From positions 1 through 36,441 of the forward strand of contig CALUTO010000020.1 in the NCBI GenBank assembly GCA_944323735.1: 36,441 bases of DNA, read 5' to 3'. Below the pieces are notes generated by a model. The model was given only the letters and a program-made list of their open reading frames with translations, did not search any database and had not been told where the DNA came from. This DNA comes from Candidatus Gastranaerophilales bacterium (GTDB lineage: Bacteria; Cyanobacteriota; Vampirovibrionia; Gastranaerophilales; Gastranaerophilaceae). Of the stretch, positions 23,303-30,308 are shown one piece after another. Numbering within the stretch: position 1 is the first letter of the stretch; the number at the start of each line of letters is the position of its first letter. Position numbers and translations under genes: made by a program.

Positions 23303-23311
23303 GGGTTTTTG

Positions 23312-24622
23312 ATGTTAACATCCAATAACATAGGAATAGTAGCAGATGACTTAACAGGTGCAAATGATACAGCCCTGCAGTTTCATATACGTGGCGCAAA
23401 TACGCAAATTCTTCTGAATCCCGAAATTTTACCGGAAAATAGATTAAGCACACAGGTCTGGGCAATGCCTACAGAAACCAGAAATCTTCCGCCTTCAGAA
23501 GCTTATGAGCGTGTAAAGTCCACAGTTGAACTGTTAAAAGACAAACTTGGCATAGAATTTTTCTACAAAAAAATAGACTCAACACTTCGTGGAAATATTG
23601 CAGCAGAAACCCTTGCGATGCTGGAAGTACTGGACTGGGACGCAGCAGTTCTTCTCCCTGCCTTTCCACAGGAGGGACGCATTACAGTAGGCGGATATCA
23701 TATGCTTAAAGGCGTTCTTATTGAACGAACAGAACATGCACGTGACCCGCAGTCTCCTATTTACGAATCACACATTCCGACGCTGCTGAAAAAGCAACTT
23801 CCTGAAGAGCATTCTGATTTGATAGGTCAAATTGAAATGACTACAGTGATAAAAGGAGCCGGTCCCGTATTGCAAAAGCTCAATTCACTGATAAGCGAAG
23901 GCAAAAAGCTTATTGTTGCAGATGCTATGACCACAACCGATATAGAGCAGATTGTTCTGGCAATGGAAAAAAGTTCTTACAAAATTTTACCCTGCGGCTC
24001 TGCCGGATGCGCACAGGTGCTCGGAAATATCTGGCTGCCTGAAATGTCAAACCAGCACGACTTTAAAACTATTCAGGCAATGCCTAAATTTATAGTCTCA
24101 GGAAGTGCAACAAAACTCACAGCACAACAGCTGCAAAAACTTGAAGATGATGAAGAATTTGAAAACACATATTTTATATCGCTGACTCTTGAAAATATAA
24201 TGCAGAAAATACCCGATGAACTTGTTGATAGAATTTGTGCAAATTTAATCAAAAAAAATGTTGTTGTGGTTCATACATCCAATATTGTCGCAGACGAACA
24301 GGAGCTGTGCTCTGTTTTATTTGAAAGGGAAATGTCCAAAACGGATCTCGCCGAAAAAATTTGCAACTACCTTGCTGAATTGACAAAACAGGTATTTGCA
24401 AGAAAAGAAGCTGTTCTTATTTCTATAGGTGGAGAAACTTCTTACAAATGCTGTAAAGCAATAGAAACGAACAGTCTTCAGGTTATAGATTCCGTTCAGC
24501 CCGCAATTCCTCTTTGTCTGGATACAAAAGCACAGTGGATTGTGACAAAATCCGGCAACCTTGGTTCTGTAAATGTTTTAATAGACATTTTGAAATACTT
24601 TGAACAACATGAACAAGAATAA
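23312..24622 (+). CDS. Four-carbon acid sugar kinase family protein (DUF1537)
   Basis: 436 residues, ATG at 23312 with AGGGG upstream, only 9 nt after ssb. The N-terminal domain starts IGIVADDLTGANDTALQF with the DDLTGA signature, and has FYKKIDSTLRGNIAAE and VLLPAFPQEGR. The C-terminal domain has FIVSGSATKLTAQQL, ISIGGETSYKCCKAI (nucleotide-binding GGET) and the end WIVTKSGNLGS. Characterised members phosphorylate D-erythronate, D-threonate and related four-carbon acids. The next gene is a PdxA-family dehydrogenase, the partner that oxidises such phosphates, so the two may form a short catabolic route or feed vitamin B6 synthesis. Confidence 0.88.
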   Translation: MLTSNNIGIVADDLTGANDTALQFHIRGANTQILLNPEILPENRLSTQVWAMPTETRNLPPSEAYERVKSTVELLKDKLGIEFFYKKIDSTLRGNIAAETLAMLEVLDWDAAVLLPAFPQEGRITVGGYHMLKGVLIERTEHARDPQSPIYESHIPTLLKKQLPEEHSDLIGQIEMTTVIKGAGPVLQKLNSLISEGKKLIVADAMTTTDIEQIVLAMEKSSYKILPCGSAGCAQVLGNIWLPEMSNQHDFKTIQAMPKFIVSGSATKLTAQQLQKLEDDEEFENTYFISLTLENIMQKIPDELVDRICANLIKKNVVVVHTSNIVADEQELCSVLFEREMSKTDLAEKICNYLAELTKQVFARKEAVLISIGGETSYKCCKAIETNSLQVIDSVQPAIPLCLDTKAQWIVTKSGNLGSVNVLIDILKYFEQHEQE

Positions 24623-25571
24623 AATAGTTATAACAACAGGCGACTATAACGGAATAGGCGTGGAAATAATCATAAAAGCCCTGCAAAATCTGCATGACAT
24701 ACACCCATTTATATCCGTCATCGGGAATAAAAAAATATTTGAAATATTTCAACAGAAACACGGACTTAAGCTACCTGATACTATAGAAGTTTTAGATATC
24801 CCGTTCGATGTAAACGACTACAGACCCGGAAAAGAATCTGCCGCAGCAGGAGAGTTTTCTTTCAGGTGTCTTGAACATGCCTGTAAACTTGCGAAAAAAT
24901 CAGAACTAAAAGCCATTGTCACAGCACCTGTCTCAAAAAATGCACTGCACCTTGCAGGGCATAATTTTTCAGGTCAAACAGAAGTACTGGAAAAATTTTT
25001 GGCTCACGACGGGCAGAAAGCAGAGATGCTTTTTTGTGCAAATAATTTCAGAGTTCTGCTTTTAACCAGACATGTACCGGTTTCTGAAGTAAAAATAGAT
25101 AAAGAACTCATTGTTAAAAAGGTGCTGCGTTTACAAGTAGCAATGAAAAATAACTTCAAGATAGAAGAGCCATCATTTGCAATTTGTGCACTCAATCCGC
25201 ATGCCGGAGAAAACGGAGTGATTGGAACAGAAGAAATCAGGGAATTTCAGCCTGCAATTAGAGAACTCAGAAGCTCTGGATTAAAAATAAATGGCCCGTT
25301 CCCTGCAGATACCCTTTTTGCCGGTGCAGCCTATGATTTCAAATCCGGAATACAAAGCTACGATTGTTATATAGCCTGCTACCACGATCAGGGGCTGATT
25401 CCCATAAAGACCCTCGCTATGGACGAATGCGTAAATACAACAATCGGACTAGATATACTAAGGACATCACCTGCTCACGGTACAGCTTACGACATAGCCG
25501 GATTTTGCTGCGCAAGGCCGGACAGCATGGAGGCGGCTATAACGGCAGCAATAAAACAAAACTATAGCTAG
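24609..25571 (+). CDS. pdxA: PdxA-family 4-phosphate dehydrogenase
   Basis: 320 residues. The ATG at 24609 overlaps the kinase gene by 14 nt; no ribosome site is clear, so translation is likely coupled. Family landmarks in order: TTGDYNGIGVEI, VTAPVSKNAL, LTRHVPVSEV, LNPHAGENG, PADTLF and CYHDQGLIPIKTL. The three histidines of the last motifs are the metal ligands. The substrate motif usually read as GHTE is SGQTE here. PdxA acts on 4-phosphohydroxy-L-threonine in pyridoxal phosphate synthesis, while PdxA2 acts on 4-phospho-D-threonate or erythronate. The adjacent DUF1537 kinase favours PdxA2, but this may be the only PdxA of the genome. Its stop overlaps the stop of the opposing gene (CTAG). 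Confidence 0.85.
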   Translation: MNKNKIVITTGDYNGIGVEIIIKALQNLHDIHPFISVIGNKKIFEIFQQKHGLKLPDTIEVLDIPFDVNDYRPGKESAAAGEFSFRCLEHACKLAKKSELKAIVTAPVSKNALHLAGHNFSGQTEVLEKFLAHDGQKAEMLFCANNFRVLLLTRHVPVSEVKIDKELIVKKVLRLQVAMKNNFKIEEPSFAICALNPHAGENGVIGTEEIREFQPAIRELRSSGLKINGPFPADTLFAGAAYDFKSGIQSYDCYIACYHDQGLIPIKTLAMDECVNTTIGLDILRTSPAHGTAYDIAGFCCARPDSMEAAITAAIKQNYS

Positions 25572-25820: not shown

Positions 25821-26201
25821 TTAGTTAGCGTATTCAAATCCTTCTTTGATATTATTTTCTGTCAATTTTTCCCAGCCTTCGAGCTGTGTGGAAAGCATTT
25901 TTTGTTTTGTTTCAGCCTGCTGTTTTTCAACAGTCAAAGCCTGTTCTTTTACCTGTATATCAGCAAGCTGTGCTTTGTATTTTGTAAGAAAAGCTTCACT
26001 GTTAACGTACTCAATGGCAGCAACAGGATCATCGTCCTGATTTATATATCTTTGTGCTTCAACCTGCTGTTTGGTAACTATATCCTGACTTTTTCTGGAA
26101 AGGTTCATCAGCTCATTTGTCAATCTCATTATTCTGGATTCCAAATCTGCCATCTGAAGTTTACAAGTCATTGTGGTTGTTTGTGAAATAGCAAAGCCCA
26201 T
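25821..26201 (-). CDS. Hypothetical coiled-coil protein
   Basis: 126 residues, ATG with AGAGG 8 nt upstream. After a short Ser/Thr start (MGFAISQTTTMTC) it is almost all helix: two heptad-rich segments, about residues 13-50 and 75-115, split by QRYINQDDDPVAAIEYVNS. It has no signal peptide or membrane span. The pattern recalls small helical secretion or flagellar accessory proteins, but that is not established. Confidence 0.65.
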   Translation of the reverse strand: MGFAISQTTTMTCKLQMADLESRIMRLTNELMNLSRKSQDIVTKQQVEAQRYINQDDDPVAAIEYVNSEAFLTKYKAQLADIQVKEQALTVEKQQAETKQKMLSTQLEGWEKLTENNIKEGFEYAN

Positions 26202-26333
26202 CTCTTTATCCTCTTTTTCTTATTTACTCTCTTATATATCCTCGTATATATATAAAGTAAAATGATATATAAAAATTGCCTTTTTGATATATACTTTGCT
26301 TAACATTTTGTAATATATTGGCTTGATTGCACT

Positions 26334-26373
26334 AAAAAAGGGGCTCTGAGAACATTCTCAGAGCCCCTTTTTT
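26334..26373. terminator. Strong bidirectional terminator
   Basis: A 40-bp perfect inverted repeat with 19-bp arms (core GGGGCTCTGAGAA) and a 2-nt centre, flanked by A6 and T6. It ends the gcvH-like transcript on the - strand and blocks read-through the other way. Confidence 0.9.
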
Positions 26374-26384
26374 ATTATCAGTAT

Positions 26385-26768
26385 TTATAAATCCACATCA
26401 TCTTTGTAATCAATATAGTCCAGCAAATCCCCTGTCTCTGAATCCGCAGTATCAGAAACAATTTTAATCAGCCAGCCGTCCTCATAAGGACTTTCATTCA
26501 GCAGCTCCGGATTTTCAATAAGCTTTTCATTCGCTTCTATAACCTTACCCGAAACAGGCATATATAATTCTGTTGCAGCCCTTACAGACTCGATTGTCGC
26601 AAAGACCTCACCTTTCACAAATTCAGTATCCGGCTCCGGCAGCTCAACAAAAACAACATCTCCAAGTTTTTCCAGACCGTAATCAGTTATTCCTATTTTA
26701 AAGCAATCATTGTCTTCCAGCAGATATTCATGACTTTTTGCGCATAATATACCCTCAGGTACAATCAT
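26385..26768 (-). CDS. gcvH: GcvH-like protein with Arg at the lipoyl-lysine position
   Basis: 127 residues, ATG at 26768 with AAGGAG upstream. It aligns with glycine cleavage H protein throughout: ITDYGLEKLGDVVFVELPE, GEVFATIES, YMPVSGKVIEANEKL, NPELLNESPYEDGWLIKI. H protein carries lipoate on the lysine of the ESVKA motif and shuttles the aminomethyl group between P, T and L proteins. Here the motif is ESVRA: the codon is AGG (Arg), read directly from the sequence. Arginine cannot be lipoylated, so the protein is unlikely to work as a normal H protein. It keeps its own promoter and terminator and all other conserved stretches, so it does not look like decay. No gcvP or gcvT lies near. Confidence 0.85.
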   Translation of the reverse strand: MIVPEGILCAKSHEYLLEDNDCFKIGITDYGLEKLGDVVFVELPEPDTEFVKGEVFATIESVRAATELYMPVSGKVIEANEKLIENPELLNESPYEDGWLIKIVSDTADSETGDLLDYIDYKDDVDL

Positions 26769-26836: not shown

Positions 26837-26865
26837 TTTGTAAAATATTTTGAATACATTGTCAA
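26837..26865 (-). promoter_or_regulatory. Promoter of the gcvH-like gene
   Basis: On the - strand: TTGACA (26865-26860), 17 bp, TACAAA (26842-26837). The predicted leader of about 60 nt ends in AAGGAG. Confidence 0.5.
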
Positions 26866-28671: not shown

Positions 28672-28828
28672 CTTTCCCTTATCTCCCTGAATAGTCAACT
28701 TTTATATATTAACCTAAATATTTTTATCCGGTCAATGTAATCAAAAATATTTAATATTAGTTAACTTACCTATTGTTTATATTAATATTATGGTAAAATT
28801 TAAAACAAGCAGGCAGAGGGGGACGATT

Positions 28829-29377
28829 ATGAAATATATAAACAAATTTTTTATTTTTCCGTGTTTTATTGGACTTATTGGAAATGCAGCATTTGCAGAT
28901 GTTCTGCCCGAATCAATGAAACAGGCAATGCAAACAGACTATGCAGGCATGCCCAGTCTGCTGAACCTTGTTGTATCTATGGTTGTTGTTATTGCTCTTA
29001 TTTATGCTACAGGATGGGTATATTCAAGACTCAGCCGCTCGGATAAATTCAAACTGGGACTAAAATCAGCGGGAGAAATAGAGAAAAATAAGTTTAATAT
29101 TCTTTCCTCACTGCCGCTCGGTCAGAATAAAAATCTTTATGCAGTTGAAATAAATAACAAAGTTCTTATTCTCGGAGCAACTCCGCAGAACATTACTCTT
29201 TTAAAAGAATTTGACAAAGGAGTAGAGCACAAAATACAAGATGTTATTTATGAACAGAAACAGACGCAATCCCTTATAAAAAGCGAAGCACAAGAGCAAT
29301 CTCAAAAAATTGATTTTGAAGATTTAGACAAAAATCTCAATGATATCAGCTCAATATACAAAAAATACAGAAGCTGA
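28829..29377 (+). CDS. fliO: Flagellar export protein FliO
   Basis: 182 residues. The ATG at 28829 has AGAGGGGG 7 nt upstream; an in-frame ATG at 28790 lacks one. Residues 1-20 look like a signal sequence (FFIFPCFIGLIGNAAFA). A membrane span follows (about 47-67, LVVSMVVVIALIYATGWVYSRL). Then comes the FliO/MopB domain: ILSSLPLGQNKNLYAVEINNKVLILGATPQNITLLKEF. The C-terminus is charged and helical. FliO helps assemble the FliPQR gate of the flagellar export apparatus. It stands alone here. If the assignment holds, the organism is or was flagellated. Confidence 0.75.
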   Translation: MKYINKFFIFPCFIGLIGNAAFADVLPESMKQAMQTDYAGMPSLLNLVVSMVVVIALIYATGWVYSRLSRSDKFKLGLKSAGEIEKNKFNILSSLPLGQNKNLYAVEINNKVLILGATPQNITLLKEFDKGVEHKIQDVIYEQKQTQSLIKSEAQEQSQKIDFEDLDKNLNDISSIYKKYRS

Positions 29378-29426
29378 TTTTCGAACAAAACAACCAGTGT
29401 AATCATATACAGAAACAGAGGCATCC

Positions 29427-30308
29427 GTGAGAAAAGAAGTTAGGATAGGAAACAAAATTGTCGGCGACGGGCATCCGTGTTTTATAGTTGCAGAAATAGG
29501 GATAAATCATAACGGCTCGGTTGAGCTTGCAAAAAAAATGATTGATACGGCAGTAAACTGCGGCTGTGATGCGGTAAAATTTCAAAAACGGACTATTGAT
29601 GTTGTTTACTCAAAAGAAGAACTGTCAATGCAAAGAACCAGCGTTTTCGGAGAAACAAACGGAGATTTAAAAAGAGGACTGGAATTCGGGTTTGATGAAT
29701 ACTGCGAGATAGATGACTACTGCAGAAAGAAAAGAATAATGTGGTTTGCCTCCTCGTGGGACGTTGGCTCCGTTGACTTTATAGAACGATACAATCCGCC
29801 ATGCCACAAAATATCATCAGCTTGCCTGACAGATGATGTACTGCTGCGATATGTTCGGTCAAAAGGCAGACCGGTGCTTCTTTCCACCGGAATGAGCACA
29901 ATAGAAGAAATCAGACATGCAGTTGCCGTACTTGGAGAAGATGATTTGATAATTTATCACTGTACATCTACTTATCCGACAGAACTTGAAGAAATAAATC
30001 TTCTCGGCATACAAACCCTGAAAAATATGTTTTCATGTCCGGTAGGCTACAGCGGACATGAGAGAGGGATTTTTGCCTCATCTGTTGCACCAGTATTTGG
30101 AGCCTGTTCTGTAGAACGTCATATAACAACAGACAGAACACTCTGGGGCTCCGATCAAGCAGCAAGCCTTGAACCTGACGGGCTTCACAGAATGGTCAGA
30201 GATATAAGACACATTCCCAAAATTGCCGGTGACGGGAAAATTGTCGTCTATGACTCAGAAAAACCAATTATAAAAAAATTAAGAAAGGTCAAAACTCTTA
30301 ATGTATAA
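29427..30308 (+). CDS. Sialic acid synthase-like protein (NeuB family) without SAF domain
   Basis: 293 residues, GTG start at 29427 with AGAGG upstream. The TIM-barrel NeuB domain is clear: FIVAEIGINHNGSVELAKKM, AVKFQKR, FASSWDVGSVDF, HKISSACLTDD, LLSTGMSTIEEI, YHCTSTYPT, VGYSGHERG, ACSVERHITTDRTLWGSDQAASLEP. The family condenses phosphoenolpyruvate with a mannose-type sugar to make nine-carbon acids. Most bacterial NeuB proteins are about 340-350 residues, with a C-terminal antifreeze-like SAF domain; this one ends after the barrel. The next gene encodes a KdsC-like phosphatase and overlaps by 8 nt, which suggests that the product is a 9-phosphate (Neu5Ac-9-P or KDN-9-P type) that is then dephosphorylated. 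Confidence 0.85.
   Translation: MRKEVRIGNKIVGDGHPCFIVAEIGINHNGSVELAKKMIDTAVNCGCDAVKFQKRTIDVVYSKEELSMQRTSVFGETNGDLKRGLEFGFDEYCEIDDYCRKKRIMWFASSWDVGSVDFIERYNPPCHKISSACLTDDVLLRYVRSKGRPVLLSTGMSTIEEIRHAVAVLGEDDLIIYHCTSTYPTELEEINLLGIQTLKNMFSCPVGYSGHERGIFASSVAPVFGACSVERHITTDRTLWGSDQAASLEPDGLHRMVRDIRHIPKIAGDGKIVVYDSEKPIIKKLRKVKTLNV

Follow-up and report, generated by a model that had tools for sequence, protein, structure and literature searches.

The GcvH-like protein encoded in the window (here, the whole analysed stretch of 36,441 nucleotides) is probably a former H protein of the glycine cleavage system (GCS) that now works without lipoate. The same course, in which the GCS is lost, the H protein is kept and its lipoyl lysine in some cases disappears afterwards, is seen again in further genera of the family, and the retention of an often lysine-less GcvH after the loss of both the GCS and lipoate suggests that the protein does a second job for which no cofactor is needed.

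The window corresponds to contig C20 of genome G000 (2.06 Mb, 99.7% complete). The gcvH-like gene occupies positions 26385 to 26768 of the minus strand, with the start ATG at 26768 and the end of the stop codon at 26385, and encodes 127 amino acids. The first-pass annotation of this DNA had described this open reading frame, its strand and an ESVRA motif with an AGG codon, and a reading of the sequence confirmed all three: codon 63 (26580 to 26582, minus strand), where the ESVKA motif has its lipoyl lysine, is AGG (Arg) in the context GAG-TCT-GTA-AGG-GCT, or E-S-V-R-A. A search of the genome with profile PF01597 gave this gene as its single match, so that a second gcvH carrying the lysine, which the annotation had suggested looking for, is ruled out and the window gene is the genome's sole gcvH. 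Within the window, no copy of TATATAGGGTTTGGG besides gcvH was found with up to 3 mismatches allowed. The protein scored above the cut-offs of TIGR00527 (GcvH; 128.5 bits against an equivalog cut-off of 115.85) and NF002270 (136.5 against 117). The AlphaFold2 model, for which 25 sequences were used, had a mean pLDDT of 93.4 and superposed on the E. coli H protein 3ab9 with Z 22.8 and an rmsd of 1.3 Å over 125 residues, and on the apo form 3a7l with Z 22.4; as modelled, the H-protein fold is present in the Arg63 protein.

GcvH was searched for in 99 relatives and matched in 81. It was found that all four genomes of the genus (G000 to G003) have Arg at the lipoyl-lysine site, encoded by AGG, CGC, CGT and CGT, respectively. 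Because the codons differ among the four species, the Arg is very unlikely to stem from a sequencing error or to be a private mutation, and it has persisted through codon changes; sequencing error and codon reassignment at codon 63 were rejected on the basis of the CGC, CGT and CGT codons of the congeners. The alignment of orthologues that had been proposed for this site thus places Arg in 4/4 congeners, and not in this genome alone together with signs of decay, of which there are none.

The searches for the rest of the GCS and for the lipoate machinery gave no match at E <= 0.001 to GDC-P (PF02347), GCV_T (PF01571) or the 2-oxoacid dehydrogenase E2 domain (2-oxoacid_dh) in G000 to G003, and the LipA profile gave weak matches below the cut-off and none above it. 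The LplA/LipB catalytic profile gave one partial match per genome of the genus, which begins near position 72 of 200, as it does in most relatives. In G000 the gene in question (L187, 768 to 1478) scored 77.4 bits with PF03099 and 33.7 bits with PF21948, and we read it as a putative biotin ligase, as most relatives also have. Assembly gaps were rejected as the cause of the missing enzymes, since these are missing from 4/4 genomes that are 98 to 99.7% complete. By the profiles searched, GcvP, GcvT, LipA, E2 and a convincing lipoate/octanoate transferase are absent genus-wide. The loss of the GCS, which the first-pass annotation had offered as one possibility, was therefore borne out, and the check for gcvP, gcvT and lipoate ligase elsewhere in the genome yielded no P or T match and a ligase-like gene that reads as a biotin ligase. 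As a separate observation, the GCS-bearing genomes G005, G044, G026 and G015 gave a strong LplA match (open frame of about 326 to 351 amino acids) and LipA was not above the cut-off, which suggests lipoate scavenging and not synthesis in these genomes.

Among 383 genomes of the family, GcvH was found in 349 and GcvT in 319, and comparison of the row lists by eye gave 31 genomes with GcvH and without GcvT. Five of them (G280, G365, G394, G402 and G408) were rejected as orphans because they have GcvP and LipA, which indicates assembly gaps, and they were moved to the GCS-bearing set. Orphan here means that GcvH is kept, GcvT is absent and matches to GDC-P and LipA are not above the cut-off; with the five gap cases taken out, the orphan statistics refer to 26 genomes in 11 genera (g1, g4, g6, g19, g20, g22, g25, g27, g29, g37 and g41). 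In the 289 high-quality genomes of the family, GcvH was present in 273 and GcvT in 252, and by rows 21 genomes had GcvH only, 16 had neither and none had GcvT only. Because 16 of the 37 high-quality genomes without GcvT also lack GcvH, a second job of the protein is not essential everywhere. In one GCS-bearing genome (G279) gcvH is split over two overlapping frames (L184/L185) by an apparent frameshift.

The gcvH locus was compared across 29 genomes, of which 21 are orphans. In g41 the gene order is F21-gcvT-gcvH-gcvPA-F3-F22 in G051, which bears the GCS, and F21-gcvH-F3-F22 in the orphans G180 and G379. In g22 it is F4-F5-F6-gcvT-gcvH-gcvPA-F67-F9 in the GCS-bearing G059 and F4-F5-F6-gcvH-F67-F9 in the orphan G323; F67 is lacking from the locus in the orphans G024 and G290. 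The order in G039 (g37; compared with G029 of g27) is F4-F5-F6-gcvH-F10, and G369 (g25) retains the downstream flank F68-F69. In g22, g25, g37 and g41, gcvT and gcvPA were thus deleted on either side of gcvH at the ancestral locus; in the other orphans, including that of the window, gcvH is no longer at this locus. That the genes on both sides were lost repeatedly while gcvH between them stayed is difficult to account for unless gcvH is under selection. The comparison of the 29 genomes revealed no conserved neighbour or operon partner of gcvH, which counts against a second function. A PMT_2-like protein encoded beside gcvH in g19 and g41 orphans was rejected as a partner, because its gene is also located after gcvPA in a g41 genome that has the GCS and so represents inherited context.

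The window gene has a promoter (26837 to 26865, minus strand) that consists of TTGACA (26860 to 26865), a 17-nt spacer and TACAAA (26837 to 26842), a layout common to 4/4 species of the genus: TTGACA-N17-TA[A/C]AAA is found 5′ of gcvH in each, and between it and the gene lie a conserved stretch and a ribosome-binding site. This promoter is conserved across the genus despite differing genomic neighbours, which are an ABC transporter gene in the window, presumably mutL-like and RqcH-like genes in G001 and presumably ExbD/ExbB-like genes in G002 and G003 (names read from the sequences). A terminator hairpin lies directly 3′ of the stop codon (26333 to 26374, minus strand), with a 19-bp stem of -32.7 kcal/mol (z = -9.6); G003 also has a hairpin and U-tract downstream of gcvH, and no terminator-like hairpin was seen after gcvH in G001 and G002. 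The strong terminator that the first-pass annotation had noted is therefore upheld by its stem and z value, and the gene's own promoter by conservation in the genus, a generic promoter scan of the window gene having given matches at chance level (4 found, 3.7 expected). Upstream regions were read for 25 of the 26 orphans, G122 being excluded by a contig end, and TTGACA was found within 150 bp upstream of gcvH in 12 of the 25, where about 1 was expected; the orphan genes may use the former operon promoter or new ones. An Rfam search of 7 sources for a glycine riboswitch returned tRNAs only. Elsewhere in the window, a 126-amino-acid open reading frame downstream of gcvH (25821 to 26201, minus strand) has no Pfam match at E <= 0.001 and a make-up that looks coiled-coil, and Pfam identified an SBD_N/NBD_C two-domain protein and PdxA-family, FliO and NeuB-family proteins at 23309 to 25571 and 28790 to 30308; related SBD_N/NBD_C and PdxA-like genes also occur near the orphan gcvH of G168.

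At the lipoyl site, Lys is found in 63/63 GCS-bearing sequences from the order, whereas the 26 orphans have K in 14, R in 5, G in 3, N in 2, E in 1 and M in 1, so that the lysine is replaced in 12 (Fisher p = 4e-8, a value that ignores relatedness). On a GcvH tree built with the motif left out and without four class-level rows (G088, G089, G094 and G098), the orphan state required 9 changes and lysine loss 6, although this tree is poorly resolved and its strongly supported branches alone force only 3 lysine losses. Too few supported independent pairs were available for a sign test of whether lysine loss follows GCS loss to be informative. Lysine-keeping orphans are sister to lysine-less ones (G057 and G122 beside the window genus, and G324 beside G312), which indicates that GCS loss probably came first; as read from this pattern, the lysine was probably lost later than the GCS. 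Outside the order, two genomes of the same class and another family (G088 and G098) encode GcvH-like proteins (L079 and L080) with Asn at the lipoyl site (DTVNGG), and have no GDC-P but do have a 2-oxoacid dehydrogenase E2.

The remainder of the protein divides into sites that are relaxed and sites that are kept. Invariant or nearly so in GCS-bearing sequences and variable in orphans are A31, E33, Q34, D37, V39, V62, K63, A64, S66, P87 and E88. Invariant in 26/26 orphans are, among others, Cys9, Gly26, Pro44, Phe56, Pro71, Gly74, Asn80, Trp99, Tyr118 and Tyr121, and 24/26 retain the ExxK Glu. Cys9 (codon 9 at 26742 to 26744, minus strand, as computed from the open reading frame) is present in 62/62 order-level GCS-bearing rows with this column, in 26/26 orphans and in 0/13 class-level outgroups; an invariant C-terminal Cys was not seen in the order. 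Both Cys9 and Tyr118 are order-specific, the outgroups having mostly an aromatic residue at position 9 and a small or polar one at 118. The two residues may be the mark of a second function or a paired structural swap, and the latter would count against a second function.

The distribution of Cys9 is also consistent with a carrier without lipoate that has its group attached elsewhere, for example in an acyl or persulfide relay on the Cys9 thiol, and LbpA of the sHdr system is described as having conserved N-terminal and C-terminal cysteines absent from GcvH (PMC6067878, in the part available). However, LbpA by the same account also keeps its lipoyl lysine, Cys9 is distant in sequence from the lipoyl hairpin and could have a structural role, and no sulfur-pathway gene was found among the neighbours profiled (with Pfam for 8 proteins). 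We consider such a relay unlikely.

Selection on gcvH bears on a further alternative, that the gene is a relic drifting without function since the loss of the GCS, with the lysine change as a first sign of decay. The pN/pS of gcvH in the genus was 0.10 to 0.23 (six pairs, at high synonymous divergence), compared with 0.12 to 0.26 in ten GCS-bearing within-genus pairs, and the unsaturated pair G002-G003 had a dN/dS of 0.057. The open reading frame is intact in 4/4 genomes of the genus, and in a simple, one-copy simulation of neutral drift the probability of an open, indel-free frame at comparable divergence was 0.005 or less. The genus gcvH is therefore under purifying selection as strong as that on a working GcvH, and this selection after the loss of the GCS and of lipoate synthesis supports the lipoate-independent role that the first-pass annotation had entertained. 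A relic would be consistent with the relaxation, in orphans only, of the lysine and of other sites of contact with the GCS, with the 16 high-quality genomes that lack both GcvT and GcvH, and with the higher evolutionary rate of certain orphans (pN/pS reaching 0.45 in g22 and 0.37 in g41; long branches for G006, G031, G024, g19 and g41), which counts against a second function. Against it, in addition to the selection and the intact frames, stand the conserved promoter and the repeated retention of gcvH where both neighbours were deleted, and we regard it as improbable. That the protein is a pseudo-substrate or decoy, a lysine-free biotinyl/lipoyl-like fold that binds and tunes the remaining biotin ligase or a carboxylase, is the least credible alternative, for although the modelled H-protein fold is kept, the ExxK Glu is mostly retained and one biotin/lipoate-ligase-family gene is left in G000 (L187), the lysine is still present in 14/26 orphans, its neighbours V62, A64 and S66 are unconserved in orphans and gcvH is not linked to the ligase gene.

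For a former H protein that works without lipoate, the following mechanism can be put forward. The GcvH of the order would already have had a second job, independent of lipoate and of the P, T and L proteins, and once glycine cleavage is gone this job would be what selection preserves. Apo-GcvH, as a stable barrel-sandwich protein, would then have a binding or regulatory role and would dock on a different enzyme by means of the conserved fold and an N-/C-terminal face comprising Cys9, His13-Glu14, Tyr118 and Tyr121. Positions 31-39, 62-66 and 87-88, which form the lipoyl hairpin and cavity, would now be dispensable. Docking by this face is the likeliest mechanism, although we hold it tentatively, well short of an even chance. 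A broader reading, that GcvH throughout the Gastranaerophilales is a two-job protein, serving as aminomethyl shuttle and as a lipoate- and lysine-free adaptor or regulator marked by Cys9 and Tyr118, is a serious possibility that falls somewhat short of even; the GCS could then be dropped repeatedly, the adaptor job would keep the gene and the lysine would erode in parallel lineages.

In comparison with GcvH as represented by TIGR00527, NF002270 and PF01597, the window protein has full-length homology and the same predicted fold, but it lacks the lipoyl lysine, and its genome lacks P, T, LipA and a convincing lipoate transferase. Although homologous to GcvH, it does not pass the functional tests of an H protein, and the annotation 'glycine cleavage system protein GcvH' is misleading here; because family models still give such proteins this name, false metabolic predictions would result for gut Gastranaerophilales. 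With TIGR03077 ('not_gcvH') the window protein scored 61.1 bits, below the cut-off of 144.05. We take this model to represent the chlamydial GcvH-like protein, an orphan without the rest of the system. The chlamydial protein is paired with a lipoate ligase. In the open-licence PMC literature, as judged by titles and the beginnings of abstracts, no report was found of a lysine-less orphan GcvH or of glycine cleavage in Gastranaerophilales.

Other relatives of GcvH have roles outside the GCS. Mouse GCSH has functions beyond the GCS, which the authors of the study suggest to be the lipoylation of other proteins (PMC7868403, in part). The GcvH of Mycoplasma bovis is described as an inhibitor of host apoptosis (PMC11156438, in part); like the protein proposed here it has a second, non-GCS role, but that role acts in the host cell. 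LbpA of sHdr sulfur oxidation is GcvH-like, with a non-GCS function and a conserved N-terminal Cys (PMC6067878, in the part available), but it retains the lysine and carries a further conserved Cys at the C-terminal end, whereas the window protein is lysine-less. GcvH-L, encoded in the SirTM operon of S. aureus and S. pyogenes together with SirTM and macrodomain genes, is a GCS-independent GcvH homologue, S. pyogenes having no GCS; its Lys56 is lipoylated by LplA2, and its ADP-ribosylation requires this lipoylation (PMC4518038, as far as the accessible text goes). No LplA2/SirTM/macrodomain operon was found among the window neighbours scanned with Pfam. GcvH is usually treated as a pure lipoate carrier, and GcvH-L and LbpA, which have other roles, still bear the lysine and lipoate according to these partial accounts. 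Like GcvH-L of S. pyogenes, the window protein is a GcvH relative kept without the GCS, but unlike GcvH-L it has no lipoyl lysine, and a GcvH that is selected for after the loss of cofactor, enzymes and lysine presents a lipoate-free function by itself, where it can be tested.
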